In this document: positions 3,443-15,268 of the stretch, piece after piece
How positions within the stretch are numbered: the first letter of the stretch is position 1
Layout: the number at the start of each line of letters is the position of its first letter
NCBI RefSeq assembly: GCF_032464895.1
Contig: NZ_JAWDIC010000001.1
Coordinates: 1,922,001 to 1,986,000, forward strand
Reading direction: 5' to 3'
DNA length: 64,000 bases
DNA from: Phycicoccus sp. M110.8
Lineage (GTDB): Bacteria; Actinomycetota; Actinomycetes; Actinomycetales; Dermatophilaceae
Program-made: the position numbers and the translations under genes
Notes under the pieces: generated by a model
Seen by the model: the letters and a program-made list of their open reading frames with translations, nothing else
The model's database searches: none
Told to the model about the DNA's origin: nothing

Positions 3443-4282
3443 TCAGTCGGCCGCGATGGAGACCGACGCGGTCGACGGGCTGCCGCCGAGGATGCCGGTG
3501 TACGCCGAGGAGCAGGACGGCCGGTTGGCGGTGACGTTCGGGATGGCGGCCGGGGAGTTGCACTGGGGCAGGTTGACGGTCAGCGTCGCGTTCGCGAAGC
3601 CCGTCTTCCCGGTGATGCGCCAGGCGTCGCCGAGGAGCCCGACCAGCACGATGCTGCCCGAGGGCCGCGCCAGGGTGACGTTGCAGGACGCCGTGCCCAG
3701 GGTGACGACCCCACCCGGCCAGTGCGAGTCGAAGTCGTTGTCCTTGATGCTCGTGATGGTGTTGGTCAGCGTCGTCGCCGAGCACATGGGCGGCGGGGGC
3801 GTGGTCCCGCTGCAGACGAGCGCACCCGCGGCCGAGAAGCCGGTCACGTACTGCCCGGCCGGGCACGACTTTCCGGCCAGTCCGCTGATCCCGGAGGGAC
3901 CTTGCGGGCCCTGCGGTCCGGTCGCGCCGGTGTCGCCCTTGGGTCCGGCAGGTCCGACGGGTCCGACTGGTCCGGCCGGCCCGGTGGCGCCCGTGGCACC
4001 GGTCGCACCGGTGTCACCCTTGGGTCCGGCCGGTCCCTGGGGACCGGCGGGGCCCTGGATGCCCTGCTGGTTCCAGCTGATCGCGACCTCGGACGGACGG
4101 CACCGCTCGCTGCCGACCAGCAGCCGCAGCATCCCCTGGTTCTTCTGGTAACAGGCGTTGATGACGGTCGGGGCGGTGGCCGAGACCGCCGACGGCTGCG
4201 CCGCGACGACCTGGGCGCCGGTGACCAGCAGGACGGTCGAGCCGAGTACCACCAGGGGTGCTCGCCAGTTGGGTCGTGACAT
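3443..4282 (-). CDS. Secreted collagen-like repeat protein
   Basis: 279 residues from ATG at 4282, preceded by AAGGGAG at good distance. This start yields a clean signal peptide (basic MSRPNWR, then a hydrophobic core ending near AQVVAAQPSA). A short domain with conserved Cys (NACYQKNQGMLRLL) comes next, then about 60 residues of Gly-X-Y repeats rich in GPAGP, GATGA and GDTGA, then a Cys-containing C-terminal domain. Such bacterial collagen-like proteins form triple-helical stalks at the cell surface. Function (adhesion, spacer) is inference. A longer frame upstream exists but has no signal-peptide logic. Confidence 0.8.
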   Translation of the reverse strand: MSRPNWRAPLVVLGSTVLLVTGAQVVAAQPSAVSATAPTVINACYQKNQGMLRLLVGSERCRPSEVAISWNQQGIQGPAGPQGPAGPKGDTGATGATGATGPAGPVGPVGPAGPKGDTGATGPQGPQGPSGISGLAGKSCPAGQYVTGFSAAGALVCSGTTPPPPMCSATTLTNTITSIKDNDFDSHWPGGVVTLGTASCNVTLARPSGSIVLVGLLGDAWRITGKTGFANATLTVNLPQCNSPAAIPNVTANRPSCSSAYTGILGGSPSTASVSIAAD

Positions 4283-4609
4283 CGTGCTCCCTTTCTGTCC
4301 CGGGCCCGTGTGGCGGCGCCGGCGACGTTGCCGGATGCGTTCCGATGCCCGCGTTGGACGGTAGGCAGAAGTCATGAGCACGTCTTCGAGCATCTGGGGC
4401 GTGACGGCAGCCTTCGCCCGCTGCTAACTTGTGATGGCCTGCGAATGCCGTTGGGTAACGCAATCGTCAAGGCGATGTGGGTGGTTTCGCCCGGTCGTCG
4501 CCGGTTCGCGCACGTGCAGGTACCGGCCCTCCCCGGAGCCCCTGGCCCTCCCGGCGCCGGGCTCGTCGAGTCCGCCCTCCAGCCCCGTCGTGTGCGTAAG
4601 GTCCGGATC
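4283..4609. other. Divergent intergenic region
   Basis: Non-coding stretch between the collagen-like gene (minus) and the VOC gene (plus). It must hold both promoters. I see TACCGT on the minus strand near 4360 as a possible -10 for the collagen-like gene but no matching -35, and no convincing RNA or operator. Confidence 0.4.
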
Positions 4610-6839: not shown

Positions 6840-7478
6840 ATGCCCGCCTCCCGCCTGCTGTGGCCCACCGAGCTCGCCCAGCCCGACGCCGTCGTCCTCG
6901 TCCTGCACGGAGGCCGTGAGCACGGCCACGACGCCGTGCGCGACTGGCAGGCCGCCGTGTGGCGGATGCGGCCGTTCGAACGGGCCGTCGCGCGCGCCGG
7001 CCGGGGCCGCGTGGCGGTGGCGTCGATCCGGTATGCCGTGCGCGGCTGGAACGCGGACGAGGCGAGCCCGCTCGTGGACACCCTGCTGGCGCTCGAGCAG
7101 ATCGAGGCCCGGCACCCCGGCGTGCCCGTGGGCCTCCTCGGCCACTCGATGGGCGGCCGGGTCGCCCTCCACCTCGCCGGCGACGAACGGGTCCGCGCCA
7201 TCGCGGCCCTCGCGCCCTGGGTCGAGGCGCAGGACCGTGCCCGCTGGCACCGCGGCCTGCACGTCCTGTTCATGCACGGCACCCGCGACCGGATCACCTC
7301 CCCCCGGCGCTCACGAGCGATGGCCGACGCCATGGCCGCCATGGGGGCCGACGTCACCTACCGCGACGTGCACGGCGACGTCCACGGGATGCTGCGCCAG
7401 CCGGGCCGCTGGCACCGCGAGTCCGCCGAGTTCCTCGCCACCCACCTGACCGGGCCGCAGGCCCGGGCCCAGGCCTAG
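6840..7478 (+). CDS. Alpha/beta hydrolase (dienelactone hydrolase-like)
   Basis: 212 residues. The nucleophile elbow GHSMGG (about residue 102), an acidic position in HGTRDRI (about 147) and a histidine in the VHGDVHGML segment (about 181) form a plausible Ser-Asp-His triad; VLHGGREHG near the start supplies the oxyanion region. The substrate cannot be read from sequence. An AGGAG site precedes the ATG. The stop codon interlocks with the stop of the convergent lyase gene (TAG shared within CTAG), so the two genes have no intergenic space. Confidence 0.85.
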   Translation: MPASRLLWPTELAQPDAVVLVLHGGREHGHDAVRDWQAAVWRMRPFERAVARAGRGRVAVASIRYAVRGWNADEASPLVDTLLALEQIEARHPGVPVGLLGHSMGGRVALHLAGDERVRAIAALAPWVEAQDRARWHRGLHVLFMHGTRDRITSPRRSRAMADAMAAMGADVTYRDVHGDVHGMLRQPGRWHRESAEFLATHLTGPQARAQA

Positions 7479-8947
7479 GAGGCCGGACCGCCGCCCGCGC
7501 TCGGCACGGGCTCCGCGGCATACGCCTCGAGCACCCGCTCGGCCACCTCGAAGTCGCCGGCCAGGTCGCGGTCGGCGAGGTCGGCGGGCAGCTGGTCGCA
7601 CCGCGCCAGCGCCTCGGCGAGCGGCCCGACGGGACGCTTGCCCGACTGCCGCACCGCCCGCACGGCGCACACGAGCTCGACCGCCACCAGCCGCCGGTAG
7701 GCCTGTGCGGCCCGGGTGAGCCGCTCCGCGGCGGCGGCCGCGAACGACGCATCGTCCTCGATCCCGGCCGAGACCTCGGCGGTCTGCACCGCCGACGGCG
7801 CCGCCGCGGACTGGCGCACCACGGAGACCGCCGACGCCGCGACGTACTCGGCGATGAGCAGGCCCGAGGACCCCGAGACCTCGTCGGCGAGGAAGAGGGG
7901 CAGCCCCTCCCGGCCGGTGAGCAGGTGGGCCACGCGCGACTGCACGGCGGCGGCGGAGCGCGCGAGGGCCAGCAGCGTGGAGTCCGCCCCGAGGGCGAGG
8001 TATGCCGCGTGGAAGCCGCCGTGGTGCGCGACCTGCGGACCGTCCGGGCCGGGGGTGAAGACGGGGTTCTCCGAGGCGGTGTTGACGGCCGTCTCGACGA
8101 CGGTGCGCAGGTTCGCAGCAAAGTCGAGCAGCGGTCCGTGGACCTGCGGCCAGGTGCGCAGGCCGAAGAAGTCCTGGATGTACGCGGGACGGCCCGGCTG
8201 TCCGGTCACGAGGGCGCGGACGTGCCCCGCGACCTCGGCTGCGCCCGGGAACGGGGTGGCGTGCGCTGCTGCCTCGCTGAACGCCTCGGGGTTGCCCCGC
8301 AGGGCGACGAACGTGAGGGCACAGACGGTGCTGGCGGCTCGGGCCGTCCGCGCCACCGAGCGGGTCGCCAGGGCGGACTCCCCGAGCGCGAACGCGTTCG
8401 AGGACAGCAGGGGGAGGGCGTCGCCGGCGTCGAGGTGCAGCACCCGCCGGCGGGGGCCGCGCGCACGGTCCCGCTCGCCGATCAGGGTGAGGCCCACCTC
8501 GGCCAGGGCGGTCAGGTCCGCGGTGCCGAGCGACCCGTGACGGTGCACGACGGGCAGGTCGTCGGCCGGCATCCCCGCGAGGTCGGCCAGCGCCACCGCG
8601 AGCTCGGGCCGCGCGCCAGAACCGCCCACCAGCAGCTGGTTCGCGCGGATCGCCAGGGCCGCGCGCACGACCGGCTCCGGCAGCGGGTCGCCCCACCCCG
8701 CGGCGTGCGTGCGCAGCAGCCGCCGGCCGTGCTCCTCGTCCGTACCGGTCAGCTCCTCCCGCGCGGCGCCGACGCCCGTCGTGTGGCCGTACACCTCGCG
8801 CCGCTCGGCGACCACCGCCGCGTCGTGGTGGGCCCGGGCGGCCCGGGCGACGGAGTCCGGGTGCGCTGCCACCGATGCGCCGCGGGCGAGGACGGCGATG
8901 GACTCGAGGTCGAGGTCCGCCCCGGTGAGTTCGACGGTCTGTGCCAC
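7475..8947 (-). CDS. Aromatic amino acid lyase (HAL/PAL) homologue lacking the MIO tripeptide
   Basis: 490 residues, full length for the family. Recognisable blocks are YGHTTGVG (about 53-60, keeping the catalytic-type Tyr), RANQLLVGGSGARPEL, and QDFFGLRTWPQVHG, equivalent to the QDxYSxRCxPQVxG block of true lyases. The decisive site reads GSLGTADLTALAE (138-150), where histidine and phenylalanine ammonia-lyases have GASGDL. The Ala-Ser-Gly that cyclises to the MIO electrophile is absent, so ordinary ammonia elimination is not expected. Ergothionase is a known MIO-independent member of this fold that eliminates trimethylamine, and the divergent neighbour here is a quaternary-amine transporter. 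That function is inference. Possible leaderless GTG start with GATACT seven bases upstream. Confidence 0.8.
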   Translation of the reverse strand: MAQTVELTGADLDLESIAVLARGASVAAHPDSVARAARAHHDAAVVAERREVYGHTTGVGAAREELTGTDEEHGRRLLRTHAAGWGDPLPEPVVRAALAIRANQLLVGGSGARPELAVALADLAGMPADDLPVVHRHGSLGTADLTALAEVGLTLIGERDRARGPRRRVLHLDAGDALPLLSSNAFALGESALATRSVARTARAASTVCALTFVALRGNPEAFSEAAAHATPFPGAAEVAGHVRALVTGQPGRPAYIQDFFGLRTWPQVHGPLLDFAANLRTVVETAVNTASENPVFTPGPDGPQVAHHGGFHAAYLALGADSTLLALARSAAAVQSRVAHLLTGREGLPLFLADEVSGSSGLLIAEYVAASAVSVVRQSAAAPSAVQTAEVSAGIEDDASFAAAAAERLTRAAQAYRRLVAVELVCAVRAVRQSGKRPVGPLAEALARCDQLPADLADRDLAGDFEVAERVLEAYAAEPVPSAGGGPAS

Positions 8948-8954
8948 GGGCCCC

Positions 8955-8960
8955 AGTATC
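8955..8960 (-). promoter_or_regulatory. Possible -10 box of the lyase gene
   Basis: GATACT on the minus strand, seven bases before the GTG start, suggests a leaderless transcript. The 129-bp gap to the divergent transporter operon holds both promoters. Confidence 0.35.
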
Positions 8961-9063
8961 GCGACCGCCGGCCGGCCCCGGACGCCGGATCCGCGGCCTG
9001 CGCACGCTCACGTCGTCACGGGTCGGCGGGCCCAGTGGATCGGCGGCTGTCACCGACAGGGTT

Positions 9064-9069
9064 TAGGTT
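9064..9069 (+). promoter_or_regulatory. Possible -10 box of the transporter operon
   Basis: TAGGTT ends seven bases before the ATG of the ATPase gene; the arrangement again fits a leaderless mRNA. Confidence 0.35.
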
Positions 9070-9076
9070 GAACGGC

Positions 9077-10195
9077 ATGATCGTCTTCGACGGCGTGACC
9101 AAGGAGTACCCCGATGGCACCGTCGCCGTCGACAAGCTGAGCTTCGAGGCGCCCACCGGCAAGATCACCGTGCTGGTCGGGCCGTCCGGCTGCGGCAAGA
9201 CGACGTCCCTGCGGATGATCAACCGGATGATCCAGCCCACCTCGGGGACCATCTCCCTCGACGGTCGTGACACCGCCCGGATGAAGGAGTCCGAGCTGCG
9301 GCGCGGCATCGGGTACGTCATCCAGCACGCGGGCCTGTTCCCGCACCGCACCGTCCTGGACAACGTCGGCACCGTCCCGCGACTGCTCGGGCGCGACAAG
9401 CGCGAGACGGAGAAGCGCTCCATGGAGCTGCTCGAGCGGGTCGGGCTCGACCCGGCCTTCGCCAAGCGGTACCCCGCCCAGCTCTCCGGTGGCCAGCAGC
9501 AGCGCGTCGGCGTCGCCCGGGCGCTCGCGGCCGACCCGCCCGTCATGCTCATGGACGAGCCGTTCAGCGCCGTCGACCCCGTCGTGCGCGAGCAGCTGCA
9601 GGACGAGTTCCTGCGGCTGCAGGGCGAGCTCGGCAAGACCATCGTCTTCGTCACCCACGACATCGACGAGGCGATCAAGCTCGGCGACCAGGTGGCCGTG
9701 CTCCAGGTGGGCGGCCACCTCGCCCAGATCGCAGAACCCGCCTACCTGCTGGCCCACCCGGTCAACGACTTCGTCGCGGACTTCGTGGGCCGTGACCGCG
9801 GCTACCGTGCGCTGTCGTTCCAGCCCACGCCCAAGCTGCCGCTGCGCCCCGAGCGCACCATCACCGTCGGGGAGTCGACCAAGGACATCGACGCCGACTG
9901 GCTGCTCGTCGTCGACGAGCAGAACCACCCGCTCGGCTGGGTCGAGCCCCGGCGCGTCGACGGCGAGGTCGCCAGCGAGCACCTGCACCGCGGCGGCACG
10001 GTGGCCCGTGCCAGCGGCCCGCTGCGCTCGTCCCTCGACGCAGCCCTGTCCAGCCCCAGCCGCCGCGGCGTCATCGTCGACGACTCCGGCTCCCTCGTCG
10101 GCACGGTGCGGGCGCACGAGGTGCTCACCGCGATCGAGGACGCCGACCGGCCCGAGCTGGAGGACCGCGACCGCCCCGGGGCCCCGGTCGCATGA
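9077..10195 (+). CDS. Quaternary-amine ABC transporter ATP-binding protein (OpuCA/ProV family)
   Basis: 372 residues. Walker A GPSGCGKTT (35-43), signature LSGGQQQR, Walker B VMLMDEPFSAVD and the H-loop VTHDIDEA are intact. The C-terminal extension of about 120 residues resembles the CBS-type regulatory tail of OpuCA-like proteins (RRGVIVDDSGSLVGTVR). It energises uptake of betaine-type compounds (glycine betaine, choline, carnitine, possibly ergothioneine). It is the first gene of a four-gene operon and its stop overlaps the next start by ATGA. Confidence 0.9.
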   Translation: MIVFDGVTKEYPDGTVAVDKLSFEAPTGKITVLVGPSGCGKTTSLRMINRMIQPTSGTISLDGRDTARMKESELRRGIGYVIQHAGLFPHRTVLDNVGTVPRLLGRDKRETEKRSMELLERVGLDPAFAKRYPAQLSGGQQQRVGVARALAADPPVMLMDEPFSAVDPVVREQLQDEFLRLQGELGKTIVFVTHDIDEAIKLGDQVAVLQVGGHLAQIAEPAYLLAHPVNDFVADFVGRDRGYRALSFQPTPKLPLRPERTITVGESTKDIDADWLLVVDEQNHPLGWVEPRRVDGEVASEHLHRGGTVARASGPLRSSLDAALSSPSRRGVIVDDSGSLVGTVRAHEVLTAIEDADRPELEDRDRPGAPVA

Positions 10196-10839
10196 CCTGG
10201 TTCCTCGACCACGTCGGCGACGTCCTCGACCTGGCCGTGCAGCACGCCTACCTCGCCGGCATACCGCTCGTCGTGGGACTGGTCCTCGCGCTCCCCCTCG
10301 GCTGGCTGGCGCGGCGCTACTCGTGGCTCTACGCGCCGTTCACCGCGGGCTTCGGCCTGCTCTACACGATCCCCAGCCTCGCGCTCTTCGTGATCCTTCC
10401 GCTCGTGACCGGCTACGGCATCCTCAGCCCGGTCAACGTCATCGTCGCCCTGTCGCTCTACACGGTGGCGCTGCTCGTGCGCACGGTCGCCGACGGGCTG
10501 GGTGCCGTGCCCGAGGCGGTCGAGAACGCCGCCACCGCGATGGGCTACACCCGCGGCAAGCGGTTCTTCGCGGTCGAGCTGCCGCTGGCCGTGCCGGTCA
10601 TTGCGGCCGGCCTGCGCGTGGCGGCGGTGAGCAACGTCAGCATCGTCAGCGTCGCGACCGTGATCGGGGTGCAGCAGCTCGGCCTGCTCTTCAGCGACGG
10701 CTTCAACCGCGACTTCTACGACCCGCTCGTCGTCGGCATCCTCGGGTGCGTCGCGCTCGCCCTCCTCTTCGACGGCATCATCATCACGGCCGCCAGGGCG
10801 CTGACCCCGTGGACCCGCGCGACGGGGGCACGGGCATGA
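10192..10839 (+). CDS. Quaternary-amine ABC transporter permease (OpuCB/ProW family)
   Basis: 215 residues with about five to six membrane helices. The binding-protein-dependent permease loop is visible as PEAVENAATAMGYTRGKRFFAVELPLA, the EAA-type motif that contacts the ATPase. It begins inside the stop of the ATPase gene (ATGA) and its own stop overlaps the next permease start in the same way, so the three are translationally coupled. Confidence 0.9.
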   Translation: MTWFLDHVGDVLDLAVQHAYLAGIPLVVGLVLALPLGWLARRYSWLYAPFTAGFGLLYTIPSLALFVILPLVTGYGILSPVNVIVALSLYTVALLVRTVADGLGAVPEAVENAATAMGYTRGKRFFAVELPLAVPVIAAGLRVAAVSNVSIVSVATVIGVQQLGLLFSDGFNRDFYDPLVVGILGCVALALLFDGIIITAARALTPWTRATGARA

Positions 10840-11621
10840 ACGGCGTCCTCACCTGGCTCACCGACCCGATGAACTGGTCGGGCCCGGCCGGCATACCCGC
10901 CCAGACGGTCTCCCACCTCTGGTACTCCGGGCTGTCCCTGCTCGTCGCCGCCCTCATCGCGATCCCGGCCGGGCTCGCCGTCGGGCACACGGGCCGCGGC
11001 CGCTTCCTCGTCGTCGGCCTCGCCGGTGCCGCGCGCGCCATCCCCAGCCTGGGCCTGCTCTACCTCATGGTGCTGTGGCTGTTCCCCCGGCTCACGGGCG
11101 ACTCGGCGTTCCTCGTGCCGTGCCTGGTCGTGCTCGTGGTCCTGGCGATCCCCCCGATCATGGCCGGGGCGTATGCCGGTGTGGAGGGTGTCGACCCGGC
11201 GGCCCGGGACGCTGCGCGCGGCATGGGCATGACGGGCGGCCAGGTCCTGGCCAAGGTCGAGGTCCCCAACGCGATGCCGCTGATCTTCTCCGGCTTCCGC
11301 TCGGCCACCCTGCAGGTGATCGCCACCGCGACCCTGGCCGCCGTGGCGGGCACGGGTGGGCTGGGCCGGTTCCTCATCGACGGCCAGAAGGTCCGCGACT
11401 ACCCGCAGATGGCGGGCGGGGCGCTCCTCGTGGCCGTCCTCGCCCTGGTGGTCGACCTGGTCCTCGCCGTCGTGCAGCGCTACGTCGTGTCGCCGGGACT
11501 GACCGGCCGCGGGACGGGCGGGGGCCGACGCGGGCGGCGCCGGCTCGCCCGCCGAGCAAATACCCCACAGGATGTAGAGATTCGCGAGCCGCGGCGTACC
11601 GTGGACGCCCAAGCCAGTTGA
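10836..11621 (+). CDS. Quaternary-amine ABC transporter permease (OpuCD family)
   Basis: 261 residues; the second permease of the complex. The coupling loop reads VDPAARDAARGMGMTGGQVLAKVEVPNAMPL, followed by the family's TLAAVAGTGGLGRFL segment. The last 40 residues are Arg/Gly-rich and probably cytoplasmic. Two non-identical permeases plus ATPase plus lipoprotein is the standard OpuC arrangement. Start ATG overlaps the preceding stop. Confidence 0.9.
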   Translation: MNGVLTWLTDPMNWSGPAGIPAQTVSHLWYSGLSLLVAALIAIPAGLAVGHTGRGRFLVVGLAGAARAIPSLGLLYLMVLWLFPRLTGDSAFLVPCLVVLVVLAIPPIMAGAYAGVEGVDPAARDAARGMGMTGGQVLAKVEVPNAMPLIFSGFRSATLQVIATATLAAVAGTGGLGRFLIDGQKVRDYPQMAGGALLVAVLALVVDLVLAVVQRYVVSPGLTGRGTGGGRRGRRRLARRANTPQDVEIREPRRTVDAQAS

Positions 11622-11654
11622 CGACCTGTCGACCGAACCGAGAGGCACGACCAA

Positions 11655-12584
11655 GTGAAGCTGACCAGAATGACCGTGACCGTGGCCACCGTGGCCGCGC
11701 TGCTGGGGACGGCCGCCTGTGGCAGCTCCGGTGGGGACCCGCTCGCGACCAAGACCAGCAGCAGCTCAGCCGGGGGCTCGAGCAGCGGCATCACCGTCGG
11801 CTCGGCCGACTTCCCGGAGAGCGCCCTGCTCGCCGAGATCTACGCCGGTGCCCTCGAGGCCAAGGGCATCAAGGTGACCAAGCGGCTCAACATCGGTGCG
11901 CGTGAGGCGTACATCCCGGCCCTGCAGGACGGGTCGATCGACCTCATCCCGGAGTACACCGGGGTCCTGACCCAGTACTTCAACAAGAACGCCAAGGCGA
12001 CCGACGCCGACGGCGTCTACTCCGAGCTCAAGTCCTCCCTGCCGGCGACGCTGACCGTGCTCGACAAGTCGGCGGCCGAGGACAAGGACGCCCTGGTGAT
12101 GAAGAAGTCCAAGGCCGACCAGCTCGGGGTGAAGTCGATCGCCGACCTCAAGGGCAAGAGCCAGGACCTCACCGTCGGCGGCCCGCCGGAGTGGAAGACC
12201 CGCCTCACGGGCCTGCCCGGGTTCAAGAAGATCTACGGCCTGGAGTTCAAGACGTTCCGGCCGCTCGACGCCGGTGGCCCGCTCACCCTGGCTGCCCTGA
12301 AGAACGGCCAGATCGACGCCGGTGACCTCTTCACCACCGACCCCAACATCGCGGCCAACGACCTCGTCGCGCTCGAGGACCCCAAGAGCATGTACGCGGC
12401 GCAGAACGTCGTCCCGCTCATCACCAAGAGCAAGAGCAACGACACCATCGCCGGCGCGCTCAACGCCGTCTCGGCCAAGCTCGACACGCAGACCCTGGCG
12501 GCCCTGCTCAAGGAGGTCGTCGTCGACAAGAAGGACGCGTCGGCGGTGGCCAAGGAGTTCCTCGGCAAGAACGGCCTCGGCTGA
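11655..12584 (+). CDS. Quaternary-amine ABC transporter substrate-binding lipoprotein (OpuCC/ProX family)
   Basis: 309 residues. A signal peptide ends in a GTAAC lipobox with the lipid-modified Cys at residue 22. After a Ser/Gly linker comes a type II binding fold starting ITVGSADFPESALLAEIYA, with the family block DLIPEYTGVLTQYF. These proteins bind trimethylammonium groups in an aromatic cage; which residues form it here would need a structural model. A GAGAGG site precedes the GTG start. The gene closes the transporter operon and is followed by a strong terminator. Confidence 0.9.
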   Translation: MKLTRMTVTVATVAALLGTAACGSSGGDPLATKTSSSSAGGSSSGITVGSADFPESALLAEIYAGALEAKGIKVTKRLNIGAREAYIPALQDGSIDLIPEYTGVLTQYFNKNAKATDADGVYSELKSSLPATLTVLDKSAAEDKDALVMKKSKADQLGVKSIADLKGKSQDLTVGGPPEWKTRLTGLPGFKKIYGLEFKTFRPLDAGGPLTLAALKNGQIDAGDLFTTDPNIAANDLVALEDPKSMYAAQNVVPLITKSKSNDTIAGALNAVSAKLDTQTLAALLKEVVVDKKDASAVAKEFLGKNGLG

Positions 12585-12841: not shown

Positions 12842-15268
12842 GTGCTGACTCCGTGCGTGGGCCGTGACGAGGTCATCGACCGCGTCCGACAGCTCGTCGA
12901 GGAGCACCGCTGGGTGACCCTCACGGGCGCTCCCGGCTGCGGCAAGACGCTCGTCGCGCGGCACGCAGCCGCCGCCGTGCCGGCGTCCCTCTGGGTGAGC
13001 GCGCACGCCCACAGCTCGCGTGCCAGCCTCGTCACCGCGTGCCTGGGCGCGCTGAACGCGGAGGTGGCGCCCGGCGACTCCGAGACCATGGCCCTCAAGC
13101 GGGCCCTCGACGGCCGGGACGTCCTGCTCGTGCTCGACGGCGTCGACTCGGTCGACGGGCTGGGCGCGCTGCTGCAGGACCTGGTCGAGGAGACCGACAC
13201 CTGGCGGCTGCTGTGCACCGCCCAGACCGTCGCGGGGCGCCCCCACGAGCGGGTGCTACGGCTGCAGCCGCTGCCGGCGCCGAAGGCGTCCGGGGAGCTC
13301 GAGGGCCCGGCGGTGGAGCTGCTGCTGGCCCGCGTGGCGGCGGCCGGCGGCCACCTCGTCGACCTCGACACCCACGGGCCGACCATCCGCCGGCTCATCA
13401 CCGCCAGCGGTGGCCTGCCCCTCCTCCTGGAGCAGCTCGCGGTGCAGATCGCCCTCGTCGGTGTCAGTGACGTCGCGCCCGTCGGCTCGATGGACGAGGC
13501 GGTCCGGGCCTCCTACGCCCTGCTCGACGAGGAGCAGCAGCGGTGCTTCCGACGGCTGGCCGTGATCGGCCAGCCCGTGGGGCTCGACGTCATCGCCCAC
13601 GGCTGCGGCGTCTCCCGGGCGCAGGCCGTCCAGCTCGCCTCGGCCCTGTCCCGCCGCAGCCTCGTCGAGGTCCACGCCGACGGCCGGTTCGCGATGCTGG
13701 CCCCGCTGCGCGAGGTCGGGCGGGCCCTGGCCGCCGAGACCGACGACGAGGTGGGCGCGTTCCAGGGCCTCGTGGCCTGGGCCGACGCCGTGCTCCCGCG
13801 CGACTTCTTCTCCGGGGCGGCGAACGAGCCGTGGCTCGCCGAGCTCGACCTGCTCGCCATGGCCGTCCGGTACGCCTGCGCGCAGGACGCGACCCGTCCG
13901 CTCGGGTACGAGCTCGCCAACCGCGCGTTCTCCACGCTGTACACGGCCATGCGGGTCCGCGAGGCCGTCGACCTGCTCGAGTCGGTCCTCGACAGCGGTG
14001 ACGGGCCGCCGCTCGTGGGCTCCCAGCTCGCCCGCCGCGCCGGCATCTGCGCCTCCGAGGCCCGCGGAACGTACGAGGGCCTGCGCCTGCTGGAACGCGC
14101 CGAGCAGCACGCCCAGGCCCTGGACCCCCAGGAGCGCGACCTCGAGGTCGCCCGCACCGCCGCGATCCGCGCGGAGATGCACCTCGACGCGGGCAAGCTC
14201 GCCGAGGCCCGGGCCGACGCCGAGCGCACGCTCGAGCTGGGCCAGGGGGACCCGTACGTCGTCCGCCAGGTCCGCCGCACCCTGATGGACGTCTGCGTGT
14301 CGACCGGCGACTGGGACGAGGCCGAGCGGCTCGCCGCGCTGGTCGTCGACGCGCCGCCGCCCGACGAGCTGTGGATCGCGCTGGCGGCTCGGGTGCTCCA
14401 GGCGAAGGTCGCCTGGGAGCAGGGGCGCCTGGTCGAGGCCGAGTCCCTGGCCCGGGTGGCCCGCGAGCAGGCCCGTGAGATCCACGAGGACCGGATCGCC
14501 CTGCTCGCCGACACGGTCCACCGGCTGGTGACCGGCGAGCCCGGCGCCGAGGTCGAGCCGGACGGGCTGCCCTGGGCCGTGCGCCTCGTCGTGCAGCTGC
14601 AGGAGGTGCGCGAGCTGCTCGCCGCCGGCGAGACGGCCCGGGCCGCGGGCCTGGCTGCCGACATCGTGGTCCTCGCCGACAGCAGCAACCTCGGTCGCGA
14701 CGCGGTCGAGGCGCGACTGCTCGTGGGGGACGCCCTCGTCGAGCTGGGCGAGCCCGGCCAGGCCCAGGCGTCGTACCTGTCGGCCCTGCGGCGCGCCGCC
14801 CAGGTGCCGTTGCCGCTCCGGGCGGCCGACGCCCTCGACGGGCTCGCCGGCCTGCTGCGGCGCAACGCCAACCCCGCCCACCGGCACGTCGCCGGCGCCG
14901 CCGCGGCCCTGCGGGTGACGCGCCAGGCGGTGGGCCGGGACCGGCCAGGCGTGGCGTATACCGCGGGCGCCGTCCGCGACTGCCCCTCCGGCTGGGTGGT
15001 GGACCAGCAGCTCACGGCGGACGGCGTGGCCGCGGTCACCGCCCTCTTCGCCGCGTCCACGGCCGAGGTCGTGACCCCGCTGGACGCCCTCACCAAGGCC
15101 GAGCGGGCGGTGGCCGAGCTGGTCGCGGAGGGGCTGACGAGCCGGCAGATCGCCACCCGGCTCTTCGTGTCGCCGCGCACGGTGGACGCCCACCTGTCGC
15201 ACATCTACCGCAAGCTCGAGATCGCCTCGCGGGCCAAGCTCGCGGCGCTCATGGCCGAGGTCGCCTGA
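12842..15268 (+). CDS. LuxR-family regulator with N-terminal NTPase domain
   Basis: 808 residues. Walker A GAPGCGKT at 29-36 and Walker B VLLVLD at about 94-99 mark an AAA/STAND-type ATPase. A long helical middle region (about 350-690), probably TPR-like, is followed by a C-terminal LuxR helix-turn-helix (about 748-808) with LTKAERAVAELVAEG and the recognition region LFVSPRTVDAHL. The layout is that of large ATP-binding LuxR regulators, which use NTP binding and a sensor repeat domain to gate DNA binding. No cognate target is visible. The gene is preceded by two hairpins and has its own possible promoter. Confidence 0.85.
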   Translation: MLTPCVGRDEVIDRVRQLVEEHRWVTLTGAPGCGKTLVARHAAAAVPASLWVSAHAHSSRASLVTACLGALNAEVAPGDSETMALKRALDGRDVLLVLDGVDSVDGLGALLQDLVEETDTWRLLCTAQTVAGRPHERVLRLQPLPAPKASGELEGPAVELLLARVAAAGGHLVDLDTHGPTIRRLITASGGLPLLLEQLAVQIALVGVSDVAPVGSMDEAVRASYALLDEEQQRCFRRLAVIGQPVGLDVIAHGCGVSRAQAVQLASALSRRSLVEVHADGRFAMLAPLREVGRALAAETDDEVGAFQGLVAWADAVLPRDFFSGAANEPWLAELDLLAMAVRYACAQDATRPLGYELANRAFSTLYTAMRVREAVDLLESVLDSGDGPPLVGSQLARRAGICASEARGTYEGLRLLERAEQHAQALDPQERDLEVARTAAIRAEMHLDAGKLAEARADAERTLELGQGDPYVVRQVRRTLMDVCVSTGDWDEAERLAALVVDAPPPDELWIALAARVLQAKVAWEQGRLVEAESLARVAREQAREIHEDRIALLADTVHRLVTGEPGAEVEPDGLPWAVRLVVQLQEVRELLAAGETARAAGLAADIVVLADSSNLGRDAVEARLLVGDALVELGEPGQAQASYLSALRRAAQVPLPLRAADALDGLAGLLRRNANPAHRHVAGAAAALRVTRQAVGRDRPGVAYTAGAVRDCPSGWVVDQQLTADGVAAVTALFAASTAEVVTPLDALTKAERAVAELVAEGLTSRQIATRLFVSPRTVDAHLSHIYRKLEIASRAKLAALMAEVA

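Follow-up and report, generated by a model that had tools for sequence, protein, structure and literature searches.

A conserved module of a MIO-less histidine ammonia-lyase homologue and an OpuC/ProX-type importer in Actinomycetota, with a possible role in histidine-betaine breakdown

Actinobacteria and fungi produce ergothioneine and its precursor hercynine; to our knowledge, little is known about how soil bacteria break either compound down. Among the closest described enzymes is ergothionase, a member of the histidine and phenylalanine ammonia-lyase (HAL/PAL) fold that works without the 4-methylideneimidazole-5-one (MIO) cofactor of that family; our reference was PDB 6s7j/6s7q, so named in the PDB table, an enzyme which presumably (going by a reference title) originates from Treponema denticola. 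On the importer side, the available text of PMC9732360 names the pocket residues of the binding proteins ProX of A. fulgidus and EgtU of S. pneumoniae, while that of PMC5894108 describes an M. tuberculosis ProX which has no trimethylammonium cage, did not bind betaine, choline or carnitine, and binds polyphenols weakly. The same text refers to previous work reporting glycine betaine import by the ProXVWZ operon, and the ligands that it names do not include ergothioneine or hercynine. Here we analyse a locus in a 64,000-nucleotide stretch of Phycicoccus sp. M110.8 (contig NZ_JAWDIC010000001.1, positions 1,922,001 to 1,986,000; hereafter the window), in which the gene for a MIO-less homologue of these lyases (minus strand) and an ATPase-permease-permease-binding-protein operon (plus strand) diverge from a 129-bp intergenic region.

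The two form a real, conserved enzyme-importer module. We judge it about an even chance (roughly 50%) that the lyase is catalytically active and carries out a MIO-independent 1,2-elimination on a histidine-derived substrate from which a better leaving group than ammonia departs; the likeliest such group is the trimethylamine of a histidine betaine. This betaine would most likely be hercynine, with ergothioneine as the alternative in relatives that have a CDO-like gene as well. We favour this reading because the MIO tripeptide has been lost in one conserved way, the HAL positions are kept, ergothionase-like features are present and the neighbouring genes are conserved.

The lyase matches Pfam Lyase_aromatic with 300 bits over residues 13–446, making it a full-length HAL/PAL-type chain, and scores 219 bits against the NCBIfam hutH model, for which the cut-off is 539. 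It lacks the MIO-forming A/C-S-G of histidine ammonia-lyase: where the true HutH encoded in the same genome (G000:C1:1587728) has GSLGCSGDL, the window lyase has GSLG-TADLT, with one residue fewer, and its genus orthologues read GSLG-TGDL. The coordinates, lengths and intergenic gap given in the original prediction, which was made from the window sequence by itself, were borne out, as was its description of a full-length HAL/PAL homologue devoid of the MIO tripeptide, on which the Pfam match and the alignment agree. The shortened loop is no sequencing slip, because it is conserved in 25/25 aligned members of the clade to which the lyase belongs (clade A), with the loop Asp in 25/25 and the loop Thr in 24/25 (Ile in L236). 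In the numbering of the window lyase, residues Y53, H81, G141, T142, D144, S182, S183, A185, Q258, R264, E293, N294, H308, S361, G362 and E397 are invariant in 20 diverse clade members; the deeper members L236, L237 and L238 differ at H308, and L236 also at T142 (Ile). The HAL-type His81 is kept, preceded by Ser in most clade members and by Thr in the window lyase. On this evidence, the conservation of clade A does not look like decay.

A Thr-derived MIO-like ring formed from G-T-G was considered as an alternative cofactor; the window lyase and L043 have Ala at the Gly that would be needed (G-T-A-D), which speaks against cyclisation. An AlphaFold2 prediction of the lyase from six sequences (the window protein and five of its six named relatives, which belong to Pedococcus, Phycicoccus and Knoellia, with L033 left out) reached a pLDDT (predicted local distance difference test) of 47. 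The two clade members scanned against NCBIfam, the lyases of the window and of locus L095, pass no cut-off. We found no characterised member of clade A, and the titles and abstract openings of literature on ergothionase, ergothioneine breakdown and MIO-less lyases, a coverage mostly outside subscription papers, hold no mention of the clade.

Several features link clade A to ergothionase. In the alignment, 6s7j has the loop SIG-EGD, one residue shorter in the same way, and carries S-C-N-A where clade A has S-[SC]-N-A and HAL has N-G-T. Position 63, which follows the Tyr53 motif, is Arg or Lys in 22/25 clade rows and Lys in 6s7j, as opposed to Ala in 9/9 HAL rows. His81, Tyr53, Arg264 and Glu397 are common to 6s7j and clade A, the residue before the His being Ser in 6s7j. 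In a maximum-likelihood tree of 48 proteins, where MIO status was read from the motif rather than measured, clade A is recovered with support of 100/100 and all 13 MIO-bearing rows lie on one side of a branch supported at 96/95, with ergothionase on the MIO-less side; removing the loop and SSNA columns leaves that branch at 99/93. In this second tree, ergothionase falls with seven other MIO-less rows in a group supported at only 63/76. Constraining ergothionase together with clade A was not rejected (approximately unbiased test, p-AU 0.067), and its placement is unsure because it sits on a long branch of unlike composition.

A second MIO-less HAL-like clade was seen in L101 (9976-11442, minus strand), L135 (~11116-12522, minus strand) and L238 (near 12388, minus strand). 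Its members show the loop GSGA-AGEI, QAPVSFR for QDxxxxR and Arg for His81; in L135 the gene neighbours an OpuC-type importer, and in L101 and L238 it shares its locus with hut genes and a clade A lyase. The wider MIO-less homologues L241, L244-L247, L249 and L250 display the loops -QGD, -QAD, -LAD, -ASD, -SGD and -SSD. Two of these, L245 and L246, have CDO-like genes and amidohydrolase genes as neighbours; among PDB entries, L246 matches ergothionase 6s7j best (157.5 bits), with HAL 7tqr nearly level (157.1 bits).

Clade A is widespread in Actinomycetota. Among 58 relatives surveyed, 11/11 genomes of the genus carry the lyase at 60–100% identity and four other genera of the same family carry a homologue at 38–52%; a TGA is flagged inside the matched stretch in G001 and G035, and the extracted sequences show no internal stop. 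A sample of the class contains a clade member in 27/394 genomes, with 23 of the 27 matches at 338 bits or more and four half-length matches at 293–311 bits, three of which show the motif; the best homologue outside the clade scores 270 bits and has the HAL motif. In a further family (f35), 82/200 genomes have a clade member at E 2.4e-137 or better, and three genomes from other classes of the phylum also have one.

The pairing of lyase and importer is similarly persistent. An ATPase gene adjoins the lyase in all 11 genomes of the genus. Outside the genus, 28 lyase loci from 27 genomes (L070-L077, L082-L101) were fetched as stretches of 13.6–19.9 kb, and 21 of them include an OpuC-type binding protein, the ATPase being missing or ~8 kb off in two of these (L071, L073). 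In f35, a binding protein is present in 14/39 loci, which represent 39 of the 82 lyase genomes, hand-picked for spread over genera, with 6–20 kb fetched around the lyase. Here and in the gene-neighbour counts below, loci were counted and not independent events. The pairing is kept while lyase identity drops to ~37%, and it is more than chance, because an OpuC-type binding protein is absent from all 20 control loci, which were taken around true HAL genes (L109 has a related ATPase and permease, and L115 a weak permease match). The original prediction had looked to such pairing in related genomes, and its absence there can be excluded.

In relatives, the lyase is also linked to the genes of ergothioneine biosynthesis (egt) and histidine degradation (hut), a connection which is invisible from the window and which lends support to the original prediction. 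Locus L095 runs egtABCD, CDO-like gene, Amidohydro_2, LacI, lyase, importer, IclR, HAL, hutU, M20 peptidase, hutF; L096 repeats this order, with egtA beyond the end of the stretch and hutI added. EgtA, EgtB, EgtC and EgtD of L095, and EgtB, EgtC and EgtD of L185, pass curated NCBIfam cut-offs. Among the 39 f35 loci, egtD occurs in 11 (genera g173, g175, g208, g210 and g212), such that egt-linked lyases are found in six genera once g146 (L095/L096) is added, and the same loci contain hutU (10), CDO-like (26), amidohydrolase (AmH; 21) and LacI (26) genes. Two gene orders occur in f35, lyase-LacI-(AmH)-CDO-egtDCBA and lyase-LacI-egtDCBA-AmH-CDO, so these genes stay together through rearrangement. 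The 28 loci outside the genus include hutU in 12 and a CDO-like gene in eight; neither was seen in nine loci of the genus, some of which are one genome twice. Among 20 importer loci unlinked to a lyase, hutU is present in one, L138, which is the same lyase-less cluster as L220. Another class contributes L237, with a plus-strand run of RpiR, HAL, ATPase, binding protein, lyase, M20, hutU, hutF and hutI, and L238, with lyase, CDO-like gene, hutU, M20, hutF and hutI; L236, on a short contig, has the ATPase only.

Two individual loci deserve description. L185 holds hutU-HAL-IclR-importer-lyase-LacI-AmH-CDO-egtDCBA in a single 19.9-kb stretch. L220 (G422) has HAL, hutU, IclR, importer, LacI and egtBCD without a lyase match, a natural loss.

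In the mechanism that we envisage, the divergent ATP-binding cassette (ABC) importer would bring the substrate of the lyase into the cell. Tyr53 or a partner would take the beta proton and Arg264 would hold the carboxylate, in line with the roles assigned to these residues in MIO enzymes. In an active site without an electrophile, ammonia would be too poor a leaving group, which makes a quaternary amine likely, as in ergothionase. Elimination from hercynine would yield urocanate, to be converted to glutamate by the ordinary hut pathway. Where the locus includes a CDO-like gene, an oxidative step could take the thione sulfur off ergothioneine or thiourocanate. The comparison with ergothionase thus seems apt for the mechanism and unproven for the substrate.

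The urocanases help to choose between the two betaines. Thiourocanate hydratase and S-methyl-thiourocanate hydratase are each represented by an NCBIfam model, and all five urocanases tested (from L084, L086, L095, L101 and the window's own genome) fail both, reaching 646–652 against the thiourocanate hydratase cut-off of 930, while passing hutU with 887–924 against a cut-off of 375. Because of this pattern, the sequences favour urocanate, and hence hercynine rather than ergothioneine, over thiourocanate, at least where there is no sulfur-removing step. The window genome (4.1 Mb) has one true HutH and one urocanase, adjacent to each other and ~340 kb from the module. Its single CDO-family protein shows 33% identity with the cluster type and is encoded ~1.5 Mb from the module; neither a cluster-type CDO nor an EgtD-family protein was found in this genome. 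The simplest case for this organism would be scavenging of outside hercynine, because no EgtD and no thiourocanate hydratase were found there. The original prediction had proposed ergothioneine, and ergothioneine as the substrate in this organism is not supported by the sole urocanase, which by NCBIfam is not a thiourocanate hydratase.

A number of observations weigh against a betaine-cleaving lyase. By score, the enzyme is closer to HAL than to ergothionase: 6s7j matches the window lyase with 72 bits, as against 144 bits for the best HAL, and takes rank 18 of 39 PDB entries (rank 10 of 39 when clade profiles are used); ergothionase is not among the hits of the C-terminal fragment of the lyase. 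The proposal of an ergothionase-like enzyme is supported by the MIO-less architecture and not by these scores. The loop Glu of ergothionase is Thr in the window lyase, most of clade A is further set apart by an HHGGF motif and Glu367 of its own, and the first tree groups ergothionase with five other MIO-less homologues (96/93), apart from clade A. In the neighbourhood of the module, the window has no gene for a urocanase, a true HAL, EgtD or a CDO-family protein, and 7/39 f35 loci are without binding protein, CDO, LacI, hutU and egtD, three of them (L200, L206, L218) having given the full 19.9-kb stretch. EgtD-family matches are found in 23/38 lyase genomes (3/11 in the genus), which may therefore make the supposed substrate themselves; makers and non-makers both carry the lyase, which would need to be kept under regulation in a maker. 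Finally, the binding-protein family is itself widespread in genomes that have no lyase (261/394 genomes carry the family at E 1e-30), and 20 fetched binding-protein loci with no nearby lyase match contain no clade A lyase, partly by choice of loci. Since the pairing is kept around the lyase while the binding-protein family is common without it, the lyase prefers the importer and not the reverse.

The importer pocket adds to these difficulties. The operon has the make-up of an OpuC/ProX importer, with an OpuAC-type binding protein (Pfam OpuAC, 184 bits; NCBIfam OsmF, 106 bits against a cut-off of 400) and with permeases and ATPase matching their own families. When aligned to A. fulgidus ProX and S. 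pneumoniae EgtU, however, the binding protein has Y/D/F/Q at the cage positions F293/Y341/Y419/Y443, such that two of the four aromatic residues expected of a trimethylammonium cage are Asp and Gln. The determinants of EgtU are also changed (Phe293 to Y, Gly244 to F and Lys242, the carboxylate lysine, to A, where the placement of K242 and G244 depends on how we read the alignment with A. fulgidus ProX), T296 is Val, and Glu and Arg are kept at the E375/R379 positions. Asp occupies the Tyr111 position in 25/25 lyase-linked binding-protein rows with the region resolved, many of which are near-copies from one genus; 6/31 rows were cut there in extraction. The altered cage was considered as a special mark of the module and rejected, because unlinked binding proteins have the same Asp in 17/20 cases and Asn in the other three. 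The label "quaternary-amine" for this importer is doubtful, because its cage contains Asp and Gln and the cage-less M. tuberculosis ProX bound no betaine, choline or carnitine. The original prediction of an OpuC-type quaternary-amine transporter thus survives in its architecture, and its substrate class is not supported by the pocket: judged by sequence, the binding protein has no pocket for a trimethylammonium group.

A less likely alternative is that the module serves histidine use in another way, with an importer for histidine, or for an imidazole acid or amino acid, and a lyase that removes some other group (for example N-acyl, N-methyl or a beta substituent) to give urocanate. Such a role would suit the proximity of hut genes to the lyase in several families and in another class, the HutU identity of the five urocanases and the retained His81, and an Asp in place of the cage Tyr would suit a protonated amine or imidazolium, but it leaves unexplained both egtABCD beside the lyase in six genera and the ergothionase-like features of the active site. 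That the enzyme is a true ergothionase, splitting imported ergothioneine to thiourocanate and trimethylamine as first proposed, seems improbable: the egt linkage and the adjacent thiol dioxygenase genes speak for it, whereas the lack of a thiourocanate hydratase among the urocanases, of EgtU determinants in the binding protein and of a cluster-type CDO in the window genome speak against it. We consider it very improbable that a generic osmolyte or polyphenol importer sits, for historical reasons, beside a lyase homologue that is unrelated or catalytically dead. The frequency of the binding-protein family without the lyase and the weak polyphenol binding reported for M. tuberculosis ProX in PMC5894108 would fit, but the active-site positions are (nearly) invariant across many genera, the pairing outlasts extensive divergence of the lyase, and the egt and hut links recur.

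We therefore prefer elimination from a histidine betaine, and more tentatively suggest a hitherto undescribed pathway of histidine-betaine salvage in Actinomycetota, in which a ProX-type importer with an unusual pocket would bring in hercynine or ergothioneine, a MIO-free lyase would release trimethylamine and, where needed, a CDO-like dioxygenase would detach the thione sulfur, so that urocanate reaches the hut enzymes; in some genera, its clustering with egtABCD might place synthesis and breakdown under common control. If betaine elimination is correct, a large group of proteins that score best against histidine ammonia-lyase models releases trimethylamine and not ammonia.

Table 1. Positions of the module components in the window
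Feature	Position	Strand	Basis
MIO-less aromatic-amino-acid-lyase homologue (clade A), 490 aa, GTG start	7475..8947	-	Pfam, alignment, tree
Lyase loop GSLGTADL, residues 138-145, at place of G-S-x-G-[ACT]-S-G-D-L	8513..8536	-	alignment
Divergent intergenic region, 129 bp	8948..9076	.	coordinates
ABC transporter ATPase, ProV-type, 372 aa	9077..10195	+	ABC_tran; TIGR01186 303 bits, below cut-off 327
Permease 1, 215 aa	10192..10839	+	BPD_transp_1
Permease 2, 261 aa	10836..11621	+	BPD_transp_1
Substrate-binding protein, OpuAC/OsmF-ProX type, 309 aa, Y-D-F-Q at four aromatic-cage positions	11655..12584	+	OpuAC, alignment

Directly downstream of the importer, positions 12842-15268 (plus strand) encode a LuxR-type regulator of 808 aa with a GerE domain; a LuxR-type gene adjoins the importer in 8/9 genus loci (not tagged in L033) and could regulate it. 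Elsewhere in the window, an open reading frame at 3443-4393 (minus strand) has a stretch of collagen-like GPAGP/GATG repeats.

Set beside the systems described above, clade A shares with ergothionase a HAL/PAL-type chain without the MIO tripeptide, the shorter loop, S-[SC]-N-A, a basic residue 63 and His81, Tyr53, Arg264 and Glu397, but differs in its loop Thr, the HHGGF and Glu367 of most members, its separate branch and its higher scores with HALs. The window lyase resembles HutH in its full length and in retaining the H81, Q258, R264 and E397 positions, whereas it has no [ACT]-S-G, such that no MIO is expected, and falls far below the hutH cut-off. With EgtU/OpuC importers the operon has in common an ATPase, a permease and an OpuAC-type binding protein with the Glu/Arg pair, and is distinguished by its separate binding protein, its two permeases and its changed pocket residues. 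The M. tuberculosis ProX likewise is reported to have no cage, a likeness drawn from the description in PMC5894108 rather than from an alignment, and differs in that the available text of that paper mentions no lyase partner.

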